NCBI GenBank assembly: GCA_949524905.1
Contig: CATINC010000014.1
Coordinates: 1-44,994, forward strand
Length of the DNA stretch: 44,994 nucleotides
Direction: 5' to 3'
Source of the DNA: Opitutia bacterium UBA7350
GTDB lineage: Bacteria > Verrucomicrobiota > Verrucomicrobiia > Opitutales > Coraliomargaritaceae
Shown in pieces: positions 5,936 through 19,619 of this stretch (the stretch's first letter is position 1; every line of letters starts with the position of its first letter). Below the pieces are notes generated by a model. The model did not search any database. It was not told the origin of the DNA and saw nothing but the letters and a program-made list of their open reading frames with translations. Made by a program: the position numbers and the translations under genes.

Positions 5936-7672
5936 TTACCAGAAGAAGGCATATAATGCCAGCGTGGCGACAATGATCAGTCCGCCAACTAACTTTGCGC
6001 CAGAGGAAGACTCCAGTGAGATAGCATCATTAACCGGCATGACTGCAGGTTGCTTCATTGGTTTAAAGATTGTAAGAAGCAGGCCGGCCATGAAGACGAT
6101 AAAAAAACAAATCGCCATGCGGTCAAGGAAGGCGATTTGATCCGCGTACCACCATCCTTTGGAAACCAACCACGGACCCACCACCCATTTAAACCCACCG
6201 TATGACACGACGTTGAGGCCGATGCCAACCGCTCCAAAATAACGCGGGGTGCGGGGTACGAAAAAACCAAAGATAAAGACGACCAGAATACCAGGTGAGA
6301 TGAATCCCTGGAATTCCTGTATGTAGGCAAAAATACTGCTGAAATTGTCGAGCTTTGGGGCAACTATGCCGGCAAGGATCACAAAGAGTACAACAAAAGC
6401 ACGTCCGACTTTTACCAGCTTGGCGGGCTTCTTTTCTCCGCTGAATTTGGAATATAGATCAATGGTGGCGATCGTGGAAGCCGAGTTTAGCATAGAGGCC
6501 AGAGAACTGATTACGGCTCCACTGAGCGCTGCCAAAACAAACCATGAAATCAAGGGGTAGGGCTTGATCAGGTTTCGCACTAATACGGGAAAAGCCCGGT
6601 CGTAGTCATAATCGCCCGTGGCTGGATTCAGTAGGTCGCCAGAAAAAAGATTATAAGCGAGGATTCCGGGGATAACGACCAAGAAAGGAATAAGTAATTT
6701 AAGCGATGCGGCAAAGACGATGCCCTTTTGTCCTTCTGCTAGAGACTTAGACCCGAGTGTTCGTTGCACAATGTATTGATTGAGACCCCAGTAGAAAAAG
6801 TTGGGTATCCACAGTCCTATCAATAGAGCAGTCCAAGGAATATCGGAATCTTCCTTAGGGCGAACCATGTGAATTTTGCCGCCGGATCCATTCGGTCCAT
6901 TGCGCGCCACGGCTTCGCCGTCGACACCGTCATTGAGGAGCATGAAGCGTTCCCATGCGCCCGCTTGGGCAATTTGTTCAACGGTGGCTTCAGAATTGGC
7001 GACTTTCGTTAGAATTAATTCCTCTGCTGGCTTTTCGGCCAACAAATTGAAAGCAAATAGCATTACAATTGCGCCGCCTAATATAAGCGCTCCGCCCCAA
7101 ATGAGATCTGTCCAAGCGCAAGCTTTTAGACCACCGACAAATACATAAATCGCCGCTAAGGCAGCAATTATCCAGCACACGGCTGTTAAGTTATTAAGCA
7201 CCGGCACGGTGTTATAATATTCTGAAATAAATTTCGCACCTGAAAAGATGACCGAGGAGGTTGCTACAAAAACAAGGGTGACGATTGCCGGGATTGCCAT
7301 TGCTAAACGGGCTACCCCGTCAAAGCGATATTGGAGAAATTCCGGGATAGTATAAAGTCCAGCTCTGAGAAACTTTGGGAGGAACCAAAATGCTACAATT
7401 ACCAGCGTAACTGCAGCCATCCACTCGTAGGAGGCGATCGCCATGCCTAACCAGTTGGCAGAGGCTCCGGACATTCCGACAAATTGCTCGGTCGAAATAT
7501 TAGCAGCGATCAAAGAGAAACCCACCAACCACCATGTGAGACCGCGCCCCGCCAGGAAATAATCAGTCGCACCTTTTTCCCCGCTCAGTTCCTCATCGCG
7601 GCTTTTCCATATACCAATTGAAATGACTCCGATGACGGCACCAATAAATAGGCTTACTTCGAGTACATCCAT
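5936..7672 (-). CDS. SGLT-type sodium/sugar symporter (SSS family)
   Basis: A 578-residue, roughly 14-helix inner-membrane transporter. It closely follows the layout of the Vibrio Na+/galactose symporter vSGLT. Examples are FSLIAANISTEQFVGMSG near the N-terminus, GGLKACAWTDLIWGG (SSS signature 1) and YWGLNQYIVQRTLGSKS. Signature 2 is ALSGAVISSLASMLNSASTI, which includes the Na2-site serines. A long loop between helices 6 and 7 (about residues 240-270) is also SGLT-like. It converges on xylR with a 7-base gap, which suggests a role in xylose or other sugar uptake. However, it starts only 36 bases after sucD on the same strand and no XylR-like repeat lies upstream, so it may be transcribed with sucCD. 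The substrate is inferred. Confidence 0.9.
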   Translation of the reverse strand: MDVLEVSLFIGAVIGVISIGIWKSRDEELSGEKGATDYFLAGRGLTWWLVGFSLIAANISTEQFVGMSGASANWLGMAIASYEWMAAVTLVIVAFWFLPKFLRAGLYTIPEFLQYRFDGVARLAMAIPAIVTLVFVATSSVIFSGAKFISEYYNTVPVLNNLTAVCWIIAALAAIYVFVGGLKACAWTDLIWGGALILGGAIVMLFAFNLLAEKPAEELILTKVANSEATVEQIAQAGAWERFMLLNDGVDGEAVARNGPNGSGGKIHMVRPKEDSDIPWTALLIGLWIPNFFYWGLNQYIVQRTLGSKSLAEGQKGIVFAASLKLLIPFLVVIPGILAYNLFSGDLLNPATGDYDYDRAFPVLVRNLIKPYPLISWFVLAALSGAVISSLASMLNSASTIATIDLYSKFSGEKKPAKLVKVGRAFVVLFVILAGIVAPKLDNFSSIFAYIQEFQGFISPGILVVFIFGFFVPRTPRYFGAVGIGLNVVSYGGFKWVVGPWLVSKGWWYADQIAFLDRMAICFFIVFMAGLLLTIFKPMKQPAVMPVNDAISLESSSGAKLVGGLIIVATLALYAFFW

Positions 7673-8612: not shown

Positions 8613-9800
8613 TTAAGCTTTTACTTGAGCAGTTATGATTTCGGCTGCTTCGGCAAGGCTGTCAGCAGGGGTACAGGCAATTCCACTTTCCTTGAGGATC
8701 GCTTTTCCGGCTTCAACGTTAGTACCTTCAAGGCGGATAACGAGTGGCACTTGAAGATCGACCTTGCGAGCGGCTGCGACAATGCCACGTGCAATGACAT
8801 CGCATTGCATGATACCTCCGAAGATATTAACAAGGATGCCCTCAACCTTGGGATCAGAAAGTATAATTTCGAATGCTGCAGTGACTTGATCTTCGTTGGC
8901 ACCGCCGCCCACATCTAAGAAATTGGCAGGTTCGCCGCCGCAACTTTTGATAATGTCCATTGTGGCCATTGCCAGACCAGCGCCATTGACTAAACAAGCG
9001 ATATTTCCATCGAGAGCAATGTAACTGAGATTATACTTTGAGGCTTCAATTTCCTTGGGGTCTTCTTCGTTGAGATCACGGAGTCCTTCGATTTGTGGAT
9101 GCTTAAATAGGGCGTTGCCGTCAAAAGTCATTTTTGCGTCCAATGCGACAAGATCATTGGTGTCGTTTGTGATGAGCGGATTGATCTCTACCAACATGGC
9201 GTTGTTTTCCCAGTAGAGTTTGTAGAGCCCACTCAGTAGGTGTGCAAATTGTTTGATTTGCTCTCCGCTTAATCCGAGCTCAAAAGCGACACGTCGACAG
9301 TGATGGGGACGTAGACCCATGGCAGTTGAAACAGGCACCCGGATGATTTTCTCAGGGCTTTTATCCGCAACTGCTTCGATATCCATTCCGCCTTCAGTCG
9401 AGGCGATGATAACTGTTTGAGCGGTTTCTCGATCGAGGACGAGTGCGAGGTAATATTCATGTTGAATCTCACAAGCTTCAGTAAAGTACACGGTTTGAAC
9501 CTTTCGACCGGTGTTGCCGGTTTGTTGGGTCACTAGTGTGTTTCCTAACATACGCTTGGCAGTCTCTAAAGCAGCTTCTCGCCCATCGACTAATTGAACG
9601 CCACCCTTGAAGCCGTCAGTGAAGGTACCCTTGCCACGACCTCCAGCATGAATTTGAGCCTTGACCATAAATTTTTGGGCATTGCCCAATTGGGCGATCG
9701 CAGACTCAGCTTCGCTCTGGGACTGGGCGGGGTAGCCCTTAGGGATGGGGACGCCATATTCGTGCAGTAATTGTTTGGCTTGGTACTCGTGTATATTCAT
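8613..9800 (-). CDS. sucC: Succinyl-CoA ligase (ADP/GDP-forming) subunit beta
   Basis: A 395-residue beta subunit with an N-terminal ATP-grasp domain and a C-terminal ligase domain. The start [20 protein letters not shown] is the standard SucC N-terminus. [14 protein letters not shown] is the nucleotide-binding glycine loop. [24 protein letters not shown] is the metal-binding part of the grasp fold, and [19 protein letters not shown] and [10 protein letters not shown] belong to the C-terminal domain. It is the first gene of sucC-sucD. The ATG follows an AT-rich sequence with no Shine-Dalgarno motif. Confidence 0.97.
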
Positions 9801-11500: not shown

Positions 11501-12025
11501 ATGAACGACAAATCCAAAAATCTTTACCTCGTGGGATTCATGGGCGTTGGCAAGTCTGTTATTGGACGCCAGGTTGCCGGGAAATTAGGTTTACAGTTCA
11601 TTGATTCGGATAACGCAATTGAGAAAGCAAAGGGTTGCCGCATTTCAGATATCTTTGAAACAGAAGGGGAGGCAAGTTTTCGTCAGTACGAACGGCGTTT
11701 TGTGGAGTCTGGGCACCCATCCAGTGGTTGTGTGATTGCTTGCGGCGGGGGCCTAGTTGTGCAGGCGGGAATTGCGGAGATTTTGCGCGCGCGCGGTGTG
11801 GTGATCAGTCTTTTTGCATCGATTGAAACGATTATGGAACGGACAAGTCGCAATGATAAACGACCCCTCTTAAATGTAGAAAATCGAGAATCCCGAATTC
11901 GTGATTTATTAAAAGAGCGAGAGCCAGCTTACCTTGCGGCAGGCATTGCTATCAGCACTCAAGGGAGAAGTGCTGCGGAAGTAGTGGAGCATATTATTCG
12001 GGTTTACGAATCCCACTCAGCTTAG
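11501..12025 (+). CDS. aroK: Shikimate kinase
   Basis: A 174-residue kinase that phosphorylates shikimate at the 3-position in aromatic amino acid synthesis. The Walker A loop is GFMGVGKS at residues 12-19. FIDSDNAIE contributes the Asp that contacts magnesium and shikimate. The shikimate-binding Arg and glycine-rich segments are FRQYERRFVE and VIACGGGLV, and the LID is RTSRNDKRPLL. Length fits AroK/AroL (about 170). The gene is divergent from the DUF151 gene and converges on a thioesterase gene. No Shine-Dalgarno sequence is seen. Confidence 0.95.
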   Translation: MNDKSKNLYLVGFMGVGKSVIGRQVAGKLGLQFIDSDNAIEKAKGCRISDIFETEGEASFRQYERRFVESGHPSSGCVIACGGGLVVQAGIAEILRARGVVISLFASIETIMERTSRNDKRPLLNVENRESRIRDLLKEREPAYLAAGIAISTQGRSAAEVVEHIIRVYESHSA

Positions 12026-13529: not shown

Positions 13530-14870
13530 GTGAAAACCGAATCCAAAGACATCAACTCCACCCGCAAAGCGGTCTCTGTTCACATTCTTGCCGAAGAAAT
13601 CAATGAAATTGAGGCGCAATTGGTTAGCGACTTTCAAGGTCAGGCTAAAATCCCAGGTTTCCGTCCAGGCAAGGCGCCCGAAAAAATGGTACGTAGTCGC
13701 TATGCTAAGGATTTGAAAAAGGAACTCGCCAACCGTGTTGTAAGCAAAGCTCATGAAGGCGGAATCCAAGGTGCCGACTATGAAGTTTACGGGATCGTTG
13801 ACCTTAAGGAGGGTGACATCATTGCTGGTCAAGATGCCATTATTGAGTTCACGGTTGATATCATCCCTTCCTTTGAATTACCAAGCTATGAAGGTTTAAA
13901 GGTGAGTAGTTCTTCGGTTGAACCCACTGCCGAGGAAGTCGATGCCATGCTAGACCAAATCCTTGGTCAGCGCGCGGAGTTTAAAGAAGTTGAAAAGCCT
14001 GCCGTCGAAGGTAATTACGTGCGTTGTGGCTACGAGGGTAGTATCGACGAAAAACCACTCACCGAAACGTATCCCGAATTACCTTCGATCTACGGCACTC
14101 AAAAAACTACTTGGGAAGAGGCAGGCGCGAAGGAGTCACCCGGTGTGCGTGCTATTATTGATGGCGTGGTTGGAATGAAAGCTGGTGATGAAAAATCTGT
14201 TACCATGGATTTTCCCGAAGATTTTGAAATGGCCGAGCTAGCAGGTAAATCGGTGATCTATGTCATCAAGGTTGAGGAAGTACGCGAAAAAATAATGCCG
14301 AAAATGGATGCGGCATTCTTTGAAGCTCTCAAGGTGAAAGATGAAGCAGAACTCCGTGAACAAATCACCGAGAATATCAAAAACCAAAAACAACAACAAA
14401 ATTTTCAGGAAGAGCGTCAGCAAATCACAGACCAGCTTCTGCAAGCGGTTGATTTGGAATTACCCCAAAGCGGGGTAGATAATGAAACCGAAGCTTTGCT
14501 CCGAGACTTCATGCAACGTAATATGCAGCAGGGTGCTAGCGAAGCAGACTTTGAAAAGAATAAAGCCGCACTCCATGCAAGTGCCAGCAAGTCGGCCATT
14601 GATCGCATGAAATCACGCATCATTTTAGGGAAAATCGCCGAAAAGGAAAAGATTAAGGCCGAGAACGATGATTTCAGCCGTCTAATCATGCAGGAAGCTA
14701 TGCAAACAGGGCAAAAGCCGGAAAAACTCGTCAAGGATATCCAAAAGGATCAAAGCCGCATTAACCGGATGCGATTGGATATTCTTATGGGAAAAACCAT
14801 GGACAAACTCCTCGAAACCGCCGAGCGGGAAACTGTTGAGACACCAGCACAAGGCGAGTCTCAAGGATAA
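13530..14870 (+). CDS. tig: Trigger factor
   Basis: A 446-residue ribosome-associated chaperone and peptidyl-prolyl isomerase. The N-terminal domain carries the ribosome-docking signature GFRPGKAP at residues 43-50, the same numbering as in E. coli. A FKBP-like PPIase domain spans roughly residues 155-250, and a long helical C-terminal arm is rich in K, E and Q. The start is GTG. It is followed by clpP and clpX on the same strand, the classic proteostasis operon. The final residues (ETPAQGESQG) are a flexible tail. Confidence 0.96.
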   Translation: MKTESKDINSTRKAVSVHILAEEINEIEAQLVSDFQGQAKIPGFRPGKAPEKMVRSRYAKDLKKELANRVVSKAHEGGIQGADYEVYGIVDLKEGDIIAGQDAIIEFTVDIIPSFELPSYEGLKVSSSSVEPTAEEVDAMLDQILGQRAEFKEVEKPAVEGNYVRCGYEGSIDEKPLTETYPELPSIYGTQKTTWEEAGAKESPGVRAIIDGVVGMKAGDEKSVTMDFPEDFEMAELAGKSVIYVIKVEEVREKIMPKMDAAFFEALKVKDEAELREQITENIKNQKQQQNFQEERQQITDQLLQAVDLELPQSGVDNETEALLRDFMQRNMQQGASEADFEKNKAALHASASKSAIDRMKSRIILGKIAEKEKIKAENDDFSRLIMQEAMQTGQKPEKLVKDIQKDQSRINRMRLDILMGKTMDKLLETAERETVETPAQGESQG

Positions 14871-15551: not shown

Positions 15552-16874
15552 ATGGCTAAATCTACTCGCATGACCTTTTGCTCCTTCTGTGGTAAAGCAC
15601 AGAACGAAGCTCGCAAGATGATCGCTGGTCCTTCGAGTGTCCATATCTGTGATGCCTGCGTCACTGTCTGCAAAACCATTATCGAGCGCGAACTGGGTGA
15701 GGATACTGCTGCCGAACAGCAAAAAGAGGCTGCGAGTCCTCCCAAAATATCCTTTGAACTTCTCAAGCCTGCTGAATTAAAAGCATTCCTTGACCAACAC
15801 GTCATCAGTCAGGATTACGCCAAGCGTGCCCTTGCAGTTGCGGTCTATAATCATTATAAGCGCCTTCAAGCGGAGTCACGTATCGAAGCCTCCGATAAAT
15901 TCAAATTTCCTGAAAAAGAACTGGCTGAAGTCGAAGTTGAGAAAAGTAATATCCTCCTCCTTGGACCCACGGGATCGGGCAAAACCTTATTAGCTCGCAC
16001 ACTGGCGCAGACCTTGGGAGTTCCTTTTACCATTGTAGACGCAACCACTCTAACCGAAGCTGGTTATGTCGGTGACGATGTTGAGAACATCGTTCTTCGC
16101 CTCTTACAGGCCGCCGATTACGACGTCGCTCGTGCCGAGTGTGGTATTATCTATGTTGACGAAATTGATAAAATTGGACGCAAGACCGACAATGTTTCTA
16201 TCACCCGCGATGTTTCAGGTGAAGGGGTTCAGCAAGCGCTCCTCAAAATCATTGAAGGCACTACTTGTAACGTACCGCCACAAGGAGGACGCAAACACCC
16301 CAACCAAGAATATATTCAGGTTAATACCTCTAATATCCTCTTCATTTGCGGCGGTGCTTTCGTTGATCTTGATAAAATTATCCAGAACCGCATCGGTTCA
16401 AAAGCTATGGGTTTTGATGCTCGCCAAAACAGCGAGGTTCCCGTCAGCGATCTTCTCATCCAGACTCAACCCGAAGATCTTGTTCAATTCGGCATGATTC
16501 CCGAATTCATCGGACGTCTCCCCATGGTTGCCGTGCTCGATGAGCTTACCGTCGAAGATCTCCGGCACATCCTATTGGATACTCAAAACGCCATCGTAAA
16601 GCAATATCGCAAACTCTTTGCGATGGACGGTGTTAAACTTTCTTTTACCAAAGACGCTATTGAAGCCATCGCTCAAAAAGCGATTCAATTAAAGACCGGT
16701 GCTCGTGCCTTGCGTGCCATCATGGAAGGAGTGATGCTCGACGTGATGTACCTGATACCCCACGAGGAAAATCTGAGCAAGGTGGTTATTAATGGCAAGG
16801 TCATCGAAGGTAAAAGCAAAGCTAAGCTCCATTACCTGCGCGCTAAAGGTTCTAAAAAGAACAAAGCGGCTTAG
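15552..16874 (+). CDS. clpX: ATP-dependent Clp protease ATP-binding subunit ClpX
   Basis: A 440-residue AAA+ unfoldase. The N-terminal zinc-binding domain uses C10, C13, C33 and C36. Walker A is GPTGSGKT (138-145) and Walker B ends in DEID (203-206). The GYVG pore loop is at 171-174 and the RKH loop is in [10 protein letters not shown]. The ClpP-docking tripeptide, IGF in most species, appears here as MGF in IGSKAMGFD. The gene is last in tig-clpP-clpX and ends with a Lys-rich tail. Length and motifs match a functional ClpX. Confidence 0.97.
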
Positions 16875-16969
16875 TTAATCAATCGCAAAGGCACATCCCT
16901 TCACTATGGAGGTAGGATAGGGCAGGTAAGTGCGCTTTAAATGGATTCAAGCATTTGCTTAGCTTCTAT

Positions 16970-17284
16970 TCATTCGGCGGCCTGGGTGGTACCGCAATGG
17001 TTACATTGGATCACTTTTTTAGTGCGGCATAGGAATAGCCCAATTAGACAACCAAAAAAGGAAGGAATCGTTATATAGAAAATAACCATTTCCCTCGCGG
17101 CGTATTCGGTTTCGGTGGTCGCAACGAGGGAGAGGATTCTGAGGGAGTTACAACCAAAAATTAACGCTAAGAGTAAAAGGGCAATGCCCAAAGGGGCGAC
17201 GATGCCTCCATAGCGCAGTTTCTTATCCATTTGTAAATGCCCGATTCCGCATAATATGCAGGGTATCTCTATTTTACTTTGCAT
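16970..17284 (-). CDS. Small membrane protein with two CxxC zinc-ribbon-like ends, function unknown
   Basis: A protein of 104 residues from the ATG at 17284. It opens with IEIPCILCGIGHL and closes with VIQCNHCGTTQAAE, giving two CxxC knuckles that could form one zinc ribbon, with two hydrophobic helices between them. In-frame alternatives are an ATG at 17314 and a TTG at 17320. I prefer 17284 because it places the CxxC close to the N-terminus and has a GAGCGAG stretch upstream. No family is recognised. It is transcribed towards clpX, with 95 bases between the stops. Sequence organisation makes a real gene likely. Confidence 0.6.
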   Translation of the reverse strand: MQSKIEIPCILCGIGHLQMDKKLRYGGIVAPLGIALLLLALIFGCNSLRILSLVATTETEYAAREMVIFYITIPSFFGCLIGLFLCRTKKVIQCNHCGTTQAAE

Positions 17285-17583
17285 AATTTTGCTCGCTCTT
17301 GAGTTTGTTGTCATCTTCAAAAATATAATTTATTTTAATTTATAGCACCTCATTAATGTAAGTAATTAATTTATAATGTAAATAAATTCTGTTCGATAGG
17401 TCACATTTCTATTCGGCGTAAAGGGGTCTTTATAGATCTGTATACGGATACCTTGATCTATTGATGACAGCTTATCAGTGTATTTACTGACCGCGGATAC
17501 GAAGTTTTAAAAAAATTAATTTAGCAACAATGTGCGCTTCCTGAATGAGTGTGAGCTTGCTCTTATGGAGTCGCAGTATCGTA

Positions 17584-18073: not shown

Positions 18074-18247
18074 CTAGCACTTGTATCGATTTGACATCGA
18101 CATCAAGGTTGGAGCCCACAACCCCACAAATATTGCTGCAAATTTAGCTTCATCCGGTGCGGAAACATTTACGAAGCCTGCCCAAATGGCAATTGATAAT
18201 ACCACCGAGAGGAGGGATAAATAGAATAGTATATTAGATTTACTCAT
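18074..18247 (-). CDS. Small membrane protein of 57 residues, function unknown
   Basis: This short frame starts with ATG at 18247 and ends with TAG at 18074. It encodes a protein with a hydrophobic helix at residues 5-25, a short polar turn (NVSAPDEAK), a second hydrophobic stretch ending VGLWAPTLM, and a basic tail (SNRYKC). Charge pattern, two clean helices and the PDEAK turn look like a genuine small inner-membrane protein rather than a random frame. I think I recognise the GLWAPT motif from short hypothetical proteins of other bacteria but cannot name a family. AGGA directly abuts the start. It occupies a gap between rlmH and the PEP-CTERM gene. Confidence 0.55.
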   Translation of the reverse strand: MSKSNILFYLSLLSVVLSIAIWAGFVNVSAPDEAKFAAIFVGLWAPTLMSMSNRYKC

Positions 18248-18522
18248 TCCTAAAATTAAAAACAGTTATCCAAACTAGCAAGCACGTATTTTTGGCGAGG
18301 TTATTTCGGTTTTTAGCGAGTAAGTTTTTCTTTTCTGTGTTAATGAGTTTGATTTAGGCTGATCGGGTTATGAGGATCGGGGTGTGAAACGGAGGACCAG
18401 CATTATATCATGGGGCATTCTACTAAGCTCCTTATTCGTGGAAGCGGCAAAGCTGAACGAGACAACCGATGGCAGTGAGTTTCAGCGACAAGAAGTGCGA
18501 TTTACGCCGCAATTAGGGAGCA

Positions 18523-19116
18523 TTACCGCCTCCGAAGAGCCACAAGTCCGAGTGCAAGACCTCCGAGTAACAAGGCATAGCTGGAGGGTTCTGGGACTGC
18601 TGTTAGATAAATATCCCATCCATATTTTGTTATCGATGAATCACTAGTAAAATTAAATCTAACATACTGCGTATTTATTCTATACCATCTATCAAGCCAT
18701 ACATCATCATTACTTGGCCCAGTAATATAAGATGTAGGTAAATGTTGTATTAATTCAGGAGCTGTTACATTTGATAAAGCTATAAAATCAGAAGCAGATG
18801 TTGTATTAGATGCTAATATATTTAGTCTATCATAGCTGTTTTCAGTATTAAAGTTTTTTATATTTATCCATACAAAATTTCCTGATCCTGCATCAAAAGT
18901 TATATATTGATTTTCGTTATTTGAATAATTACTACTTTCACCTCCACTATCAAAGAATCTATAAGGTGCTTGTAATAACGAATGATATGCTTGCGATGTA
19001 TCATTGATCGTAATATTTAAAGCGTTCATTTCTACTTCACTACCTGGCTCATATGCAAAAACGGATAAGTTTAATAAAAAAAGCAGCGGCAGCATAAGTA
19101 GGCTCTTCAATTTCAT
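18523..19116 (-). CDS. PEP-CTERM sorted surface protein with CUB-like domain
   Basis: A secreted protein of 197 residues from the ATG at 19116, where a normal signal peptide (MKLKSLLMLPLLFLLNLSVFA) begins; an upstream ATG at 19149 would precede it with 11 extra residues. The C-terminus AVPEPSSYALLLGGLALGLVALRRR is a textbook PEP-CTERM sorting signal for the exosortase system, which usually handles surface or exopolysaccharide-associated proteins. The body is Asn/Ser/Tyr-rich, and its last third (YVRFNFTSDSSITKYGWDIY) resembles the end of CUB-type domains. Most of the gene is much more AT-rich than its neighbours, while the last 80 bases are not. This suggests recent acquisition or a modular tail. 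No exosortase gene is in the window. Confidence 0.85.
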   Translation of the reverse strand: MKLKSLLMLPLLFLLNLSVFAYEPGSEVEMNALNITINDTSQAYHSLLQAPYRFFDSGGESSNYSNNENQYITFDAGSGNFVWINIKNFNTENSYDRLNILASNTTSASDFIALSNVTAPELIQHLPTSYITGPSNDDVWLDRWYRINTQYVRFNFTSDSSITKYGWDIYLTAVPEPSSYALLLGGLALGLVALRRR

Positions 19117-19440
19117 AGGATATCTAAAGCTATAAGCATACCACCCCATTAGTAAATTATTTTTTTAGAAGGCACTTGATGTATATACACATCATCACGA
19201 GACCAGCCAAACAAACCCCCGCCCCTCCCTCTGCTAAAGTTTGCCTAATTATTTGCCTAATTTCATTGATATTAGGCAATTTTTGGCAAAATCTCCAAGG
19301 TATGCCATTATGGCATGTTCATTCACATTAACCCAATTAATCGTACCGATAGGTAGGCTTTAGGCATGTAAGTCTCTCTTGTACATAGTCATAAGGCATG
19401 CAAGCTATTCCGATGCTGATTCCCCACCACGCCATCGTGA
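19117..19440. other. Repeat-containing intergenic spacer
   Basis: No gene is seen between the PEP-CTERM start and tRNA-Ala. The stretch holds short repeats: TTGCCTAAT at 19241-19249 and again at 19253-19261, with its inverted copy at 19271-19279. It also has a TGCCAT/ATGGCA palindrome near 19302, and AGGCATGTAAG/AGGCATGCAAG at 19362 and 19394. It may carry promoters for the PEP-CTERM gene and processing signals 3' of the tRNA. Confidence 0.6.
19241..19279. repeat. TTGCCTAAT direct and inverted repeats
   Basis: Two direct copies of TTGCCTAAT start 12 bases apart (19241 and 19253). An exact inverted copy, ATTAGGCAA, is at 19271-19279. The second copy and the inverted copy can form a 9-bp stem with a 9-base loop. 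This could be an operator for a dimeric regulator or an RNA hairpin; no T-run follows. Confidence 0.6.
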
Positions 19441-19516
<76 letters not shown>

Positions 19517-19619
19517 GCAAAAGTATTGGAGTAAAGGAATGCTTGCAGGGGCGTCAATGAATTTGTGCCAGCAATTGGCTTAAGTTGTTAGGTTTTGGTT
19601 CAAATATGGATTGCTTGAT

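Follow-up and report, generated by a model that had tools for sequence, protein, structure and literature searches.

An AT-rich PEP-CTERM gene beside a tRNA-Ala gene in a verrucomicrobial genome, probable remnant cargo of an integrative element

PEP-CTERM proteins are known for sharing a C-terminal tail and little else. Modularity of these proteins at the protein level is known, and module similarity is stronger within species than between species, according to the accessible part of PMC1569441. The gene described here joins an AT-rich body to a tail that can be traced at the DNA level across genera, and the join lies in a mobile-element context. It resides in a window of 44,994 nucleotides (the whole stretch of DNA analysed) from Opitutia bacterium UBA7350, whose genome (G000; 1.67 Mb, 17 contigs) is referred to below as the own genome. 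Where did body and tail come from, and how did they come to lie together next to a tRNA gene?

A gene of three compositions

The open reading frame covers 18523-19149 on the minus strand. An alternative ATG at 19149 would yield a protein of 208 aa, and the start at 19116 is most naturally preferred, being followed by a head that resembles a signal peptide (Table 1). The protein ends with a PEP motif, a hydrophobic segment and a basic end, and scores above the curated cut-offs of PEP-CTERM profiles: PF07589 gives 28.6 bits (cut-off 20.7; 31.6 bits in the genome-wide search), TIGR02595 24 bits (cut-off 16). The own genome contains seven PF07589 matches at E 0.001, the best of which is the window gene; for TIGR02595 there are 16 at E up to 1, and 13 of these exceed the cut-off. 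Two exosortases are encoded in the same genome (PF09721, 131.3 and 82.4 bits, cut-off 25.7).

Table 1. Features of the PEP-CTERM locus in the window
Feature	Position	Strand	Basis
PEP-CTERM protein CDS, 197 aa from MKLK	18523..19116	-	PF07589 profile match
Head, first 22 codons, hydrophobic, signal-peptide-like	19051..19116	-	by eye
AT-rich orphan body (putative), 151 codons	18598..19050	-	composition, homology searches
PEP-CTERM tail VPEPSSYALLLGGLALGLVALRRR + stop, 25 codons	18523..18597	-	PF07589, DNA comparison
Post-stop DNA conserved with tail in relatives	18509..18522	-	DNA comparison
Truncated N-terminal fucosidase-like remnant, 44 aa	18384..18515	+	57% identity over 44 aa
Repeat-spacer-tRNA-Ala stretch	19145..19530	.	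73% identical to G036:C3:54812-55198
Conserved ~64-bp repeat	19161..19224	-	covariance model R1 match 19155-19230
TTGCC..TTGCC direct-repeat motif (TTGCCTAATTATTTGCC), candidate arm-type site	19241..19257	+	motif scan
tRNA-Ala(GGC), presumed integration target	19441..19516	-	tRNA search

The body has a GC content of 0.296, a GC3 of 0.132 and a fourfold-site GC of 0.113, whereas the tail has a GC of 0.573 and a GC3 of 0.48; in the head, the first ~37 nt of which are 84% like a head at locus L082, GC is 0.33 and GC3 0.45. Twenty-four genes of the window have a GC3 of 0.486 +/- 0.034, and the lowest values among 756 body-sized in-frame chunks cut from them are 0.375 (GC3) and 0.436 (GC). The GC of the body falls below that of all these chunks, and the body is therefore far outside the local range. 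At the 15 other PEP-CTERM loci of the own genome, one without an in-frame body, GC3 of the 14 bodies ranges from 0.33 to 0.55. Tail GC3 exceeds body GC3 also at L024 (by 0.17) and L025 (by 0.27), both below the TIGR02595 cut-off and both with ordinary bodies, against 0.35 in the window gene. What sets the window gene apart is hence its AT-rich body, and not a tail richer in GC than the body. The high GC of the tail is partly due to amino-acid composition. Amino-acid composition as the sole cause is opposed by the GC3 of the tail, and by DNA homology that runs past the stop codon. A compositional seam between body and tail had been claimed in a preliminary description of this DNA, and calculation of GC and GC3 confirms it. 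The same description was silent on the ordinary GC3 of the head, the tRNA-Ala gene, the repeat, the direct-repeat motif and the truncation of a fucosidase gene at the tail end.

Judging from homology searches, the body is best regarded as an orphan, none of the searches having returned a credible relative. No relatives were found in genome contigs and viral contigs, where both searches reach close relatives only, nor in plasmids, phages and PDB sequences, and comparison with PHROGs gave nothing useful. In 384 genomes of the class the body matched, besides itself, a single long ORF of G219 (E=0.0066, 26% identity), not CUB-like by eye and taken as a chance match. Compared with 59 PEP-CTERM proteins collected from the family, the body had a best match of E=0.03.

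The end of the body had also been likened to a CUB domain. What stands is a weak profile match: PF00431 gives 14.8 bits on the whole protein (E=0.036) and 16.2 bits on the body alone (E=0.014), a score below the Pfam cut-off of 21.4, and the match covers profile positions 12-68 of 110. No match was obtained with the reversed body, used as one control. Matches to CUB were found in 0 of 43 family genomes, with one control genome matching and none over the cut-off; a search of the phylum gave 0 of 387 genomes, a figure that does not show absence since the controls were silent too. Calcium-binding CUB domains have residues of the form E...YD...SD, to which the stretches NTENSYD and TSDSS of the body may correspond. 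AlphaFold, run without homologues, returned models of mean pLDDT 40.2 and 32.5, which are unusable. With a score under the cut-off and such models, CUB was rejected as a settled identity of the body, for which it is suggestive but unproven.

The tail, its kin and the truncated neighbour

Elsewhere in the own genome the tail DNA finds no match beyond 14 bases, and the next-best tail there is 49% identical over 41 aa. The closest tail proteins reside in two genomes of another genus, G032 (88% over 26 aa) and G035 (83% over 29 aa), and are identical to the window tail at 23-24 of 25 positions. The resemblance extends to DNA. Coding bases are identical at 60 of 75 positions in G035 and 61 of 75 in G032; synonymous randomisations gave means of 49.3 and 50.3, and reached the observed identity in 1/5000 and 2/5000 trials, respectively. 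For the tail at L081 (G036), identical at 55 of 75 bases, the figure is 11/5000, while for the degraded tail at L087 (G008) the excess of DNA identity is not significant (423/5000). After the stop codon 13, 12, 10 and 11 of 17 bases are identical in G035, G032, L081 and L087, respectively. In the same four relatives homology begins sharply at the V-PEP codon, no similarity being found in the preceding 75 nt in any of the four comparisons.

Tail kin carry unrelated bodies or none; in G032 the tail sits in a 43-aa frame without a body. Besides L087, a degraded tail occurs at L143, a fifth relative found among the chosen loci only, which also lies on a contig bearing the ~64-bp repeat described below. 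In the genome-wide DNA search, among the matches listed, the repeat is carried by 3 of the 4 contigs of tail relatives. Given the location of the kin on repeat-bearing contigs and the DNA shared past the stop codon, the tail has the appearance of a DNA module belonging to these islands, and, as its closest kin belong to another genus, the whole gene probably came as island cargo. The window tail is similar to those of the PEP-CTERM/exosortase (EpsH) system in the C-terminal succession of PEP, hydrophobic stretch and RRR, and in the presence of exosortases; it differs in having its closest kin in another genus, against the within-species pattern reported in the accessible part of PMC1569441. 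The preliminary description had proposed a modular assembly of an acquired or fast-evolving body and a host-style sorting tail. The acquired-looking, orphan body and the sharp edge of the tail support the modular view; a host-style tail is contradicted by the location of its closest kin and by the failure to find its DNA elsewhere in the own genome.

At its other end the tail meets the remnant of a resident gene. The kin of this remnant is a G042 gene that matches alpha-L-fucosidase (PF01120, E=1.5e-64). In G042, which belongs to the same genus, the order is SPOUT methyltransferase (assigned by PF02590; we take the gene to be rlmH), fucosidase and tRNA-Ala, the locus being pieced together from contigs C33 and C26, bridged by a shared 30-bp tRNA end. 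The fucosidase is kept long there, as two successive ORFs of 413 and 211 aa, and of the sequence corresponding to the repeat-spacer-tRNA-Ala stretch only the tRNA part was found. Neither fucosidase nor repeat was found in G041, again of the same genus. In the window fucosidase homology stops at 18516 and tail homology starts at 18509, so that the two overlap over 18509-18516. We read this junction as arrival at the tRNA-Ala gene, plausibly with later loss of the greater part of the fucosidase gene.

Two minor features flank the methyltransferase gene. Downstream of it a 57-aa ORF resembling a small membrane protein (18074-18247, minus strand) has a counterpart in G042 (L088:4960-5133), with ~72% DNA identity over the stretch. 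Upstream of it lies an AT-rich intergenic stretch (17200-17500, GC ~0.30).

Repeats, tRNA genes and integrases

The window repeat is located ~45 bp ahead of the PEP-CTERM start codon. With a covariance model built from 22 copies, 44 matches were obtained at E 0.001; they are spread over 11 of the 43 family genomes, two copies residing in the own genome. At E 1e-6 the repeat was found in 10 of 372 genomes of the order, all of this family. The exact core pattern occurs in 14 stretches, in records named Puniceicoccaceae, Opitutaceae BACL24 or Opitutae/Opitutia, names that point to a marine origin; no occurrence was found in viral contigs. Among the best-ranked literature matches, none was found that describes these repeats or a sharing of tail DNA by islands.

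The arrangement of repeats was analysed in 42 chosen loci rather than in whole genomes. In the fetched loci repeats separate small cargo genes, many of them exported or lipoprotein-like by eye. Repeats have the same orientation at all 7 loci containing at least two copies of at least 40 bits (19 repeats). A tRNA or tmRNA gene lies within 3 kb at 16 of 26 repeat loci, in 7 of these at a distance of 161-217 bp; 7 of the 10 remaining loci are on contigs shorter than 9 kb. At Ser, Leu and tmRNA sites the repeat is reversed, and 0.4-2.9 kb away from the RNA gene. Among 34 upstream flanks, families of 12, 11 and 3 can be distinguished, while on the other side a single group of 9 is formed, mostly by ends of FRFKMTE-type genes. 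Of 510 ends of homology between genomes, 34 coincide with a repeat, against a null mean of 17.7 and a maximum of 31 in 500 trials, an excess of about two-fold obtained with reciprocal, non-independent HSPs.

Single loci add some detail. A unit of two genes facing apart (129/128 and 145 aa) lies between repeats both at L085 (7765-8850) and at L095 (1562-2885), with different neighbours in the two genomes. A four-gene cluster, larger than the usual cargo, is found beside a repeat at L080 (1754-5319) and L140 (798-4363), the two copies being 96% identical. At L096 (G037) two full tRNA-Ala(GGC) genes (6114-6189 and 8675-8750), ~2.5 kb apart, may mark another element.

In 485,431 bp there are 7 occurrences of the direct-repeat motif that lies between repeat and tRNA-Ala, 4 of them no more than 250 bp from a repeat and the other 3 at integrase starts; zones near repeats or integrase starts make up 5.9% of the bases. 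The motif, which was defined with the alignments already in view, has an exact copy at 3 of the 8 integrase starts in the 42 loci. The integrase nearest to hand is the 378-aa tyrosine recombinase of L086 (PF00589, 28.1 bits), located near the other repeat copy of the own genome. A search at E 1e-5 finds similar integrases, many of them remote, in 26 of the 43 genomes of the family; the only match of the own genome is on contig C17, not on the window contig, and no such integrase was found among the window ORFs of at least 90 aa. The tRNA-Lys(CTT) gene next to the L086 integrase (9434-9570) seems to lack its 5' end.

Upstream DNA was read for the integrases of L086, L151, L152, L153 and L156 and for the L150 relic, a set that leaves out L155, L164 and L165. 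A 3' part of tRNA-Ala precedes the integrase at L151, L152 and L153 (49, 53 and 53 bp identical, respectively), and after it, 37 bp before the integrase start codon, the TTGCC direct repeat begins at all three loci. A 3' part of tRNA-Lys is found upstream of the L086 integrase and, by eye, a part resembling tRNA-Asn upstream of that of L156; at L150 an intact tRNA-Asn gene is next to the integrase relic.

Among the relatives, only L153 has a whole-looking element. The order there is tRNA-Ala 3' part, integrase (8806), cargo, repeat (16829; 34.3 bits) and full tRNA-Ala (17107). A 53/53-bp direct repeat, consisting of the 3' part of tRNA-Ala, encloses the region; the integrase starts ~73 bp inside, and the whole looks like a complete element of 8.4 kb. 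Its repeat copies are weak and diverged (34.3 and 27.0 bits). At 16829-17446 two diverged repeats lie inverted on both sides of one tRNA-Ala, with similar genes beyond each.

Origin of the gene

The PEP-CTERM gene is probably the remnant cargo of an integrative element that targets tRNA-Ala. An element of the L153 type, encoding a tyrosine recombinase with an N-terminal extension, would have integrated at the anticodon half of the tRNA-Ala gene. One of its ends would be formed by the restored tRNA 3' half, ~216 bp including the TTGCCTAATTATTTGCC direct repeats, and the ~64-bp repeat. The integrase end would later have been lost, along with most of the resident fucosidase gene, leaving the order tRNA-Ala, spacer, repeat, PEP-CTERM gene and fucosidase stub. 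As the window has no integrase, and no partial tRNA-Ala was seen in the own genome among the matches listed (6 of 24 candidates scored), we infer the element from one end. The tail would derive from a DNA module common to the islands, and the body from a separate AT-rich source. The protein, by analogy with its family, would be exported, exposing the body outside, and its tail handled by a host exosortase.

Could the gene instead be native and fast-evolving, its body having drifted toward AT in place and its tail having been kept by sorting constraint? According to the accessible part of PMC1569441, PEP-CTERM proteins vary greatly and show little homology beyond the module, and in the window gene both head and tail retain an ordinary composition. 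Yet drift in place would have to account for a body GC3 below that of every one of the 756 local chunks and 14 other PEP-CTERM bodies, for a tail related to those of another genus and not to those of its own genome, and for a resident fucosidase gene truncated at the tail end, and is quite improbable. Still harder to sustain is a purely regulatory role of the repeat, as an element upstream of secreted-protein genes. Its distance from the start codon in the window would suit such a role, and a shared upstream DNA site is described at PEP-CTERM genes of Proteobacteria in the accessible part of PMC1569441. However, the repeat abuts the 3' ends of genes at several loci, stop codons of FRFKMTE genes touching it, most ORFs linked to it are not PEP-CTERM genes, and both the association of the repeat with tRNA genes and its link to the motif at integrases would be left unexplained; this reading has very little probability.

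Cassettes of the integron type, with the ~64-bp repeats as recombination sites and the PEP-CTERM gene as one cassette, would fit the uniform orientation of the repeats, kept though genes face both ways, the two-gene unit with differing neighbours and the clustering of homology ends at repeats. Integron arrays have in common with these loci the orientation and the small size of cargo units. They differ in two respects. The attC core has the form RYYYAAC...GTTRRRY, and the core pair is present in 0 of 22 repeats; the L086 integrase reaches 29.9 bits with the integron-integrase profile, against a cut-off of 265. Membership in the integron class was rejected on these grounds. Moreover, integrases adjoin tRNA parts, the weaker repeat pair of L153 is inverted, and duplication of arrays could likewise produce a single orientation. 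Integron-like cassettes are accordingly an unlikely explanation. A cassette system of another kind may be conceived, in which tRNA-targeting tyrosine recombinases of marine Puniceicoccaceae use the ~64-bp repeat as cargo boundary; recombination at conserved ends (signal-peptide heads, and PEP-CTERM or FRFKMTE tails against the repeat) would then provide unrelated AT-rich ectodomains with sorting tails that the host can read. The proposal is a tentative one, and rather doubtful.

Remnant cargo of a tRNA-Ala-targeting element, the reading we favour, has parallels among described systems. Islands integrated in tRNA or tmRNA genes by tyrosine integrases (Islander type) are known from the accessible part of PMC4383910. 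They are alike in the tRNA target, in the displaced 3' part adjoining the integrase, seen at L153, and in cargo of foreign composition. Elements of the L153 type differ from them by a repeat with a direct-repeat motif at the end opposite to the integrase, a repeat that recurs between cargo genes, and the window copy by the missing integrase end. Tycheposons of Prochlorococcus, described in the accessible part of PMC10872708 as elements with tRNA borders, tyrosine recombinase and cargo, are similar in these three traits and in residing in marine bacteria, a likeness of layout alone; the only whole-looking element found here measures ~8.4 kb. The data point to a family of tRNA-integrating elements of uncultured marine Verrucomicrobiota, apparently undescribed among the best-ranked literature matches, whose secreted cargo would join shared sorting tails to AT-richer bodies.

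A contrast between body and tail may be general among these islands, since a similar pattern is found in 11 FRFKMTE-type cargo genes, some of them closely related. Their mean GC3 is 0.32 in the body and 0.50 in the tail, and the tail has the higher GC3 in 10 of 11, and an equal one in the other. In three other PEP-CTERM genes of islands, body and tail GC3 are 0.33/0.40, 0.37/0.42 and 0.30/0.44. The window gene shows the extreme contrast among the island genes compared. The locus hints at a way in which marine bacteria may acquire surface proteins, each as a finished unit. At L153, fragments of 44 aa from an integrase C-terminus (11710-11841 and 13965-14096; 70 and 73% identity) follow genes ending in FRFKMAE, and look as if cargo had arrived with an integrase end.
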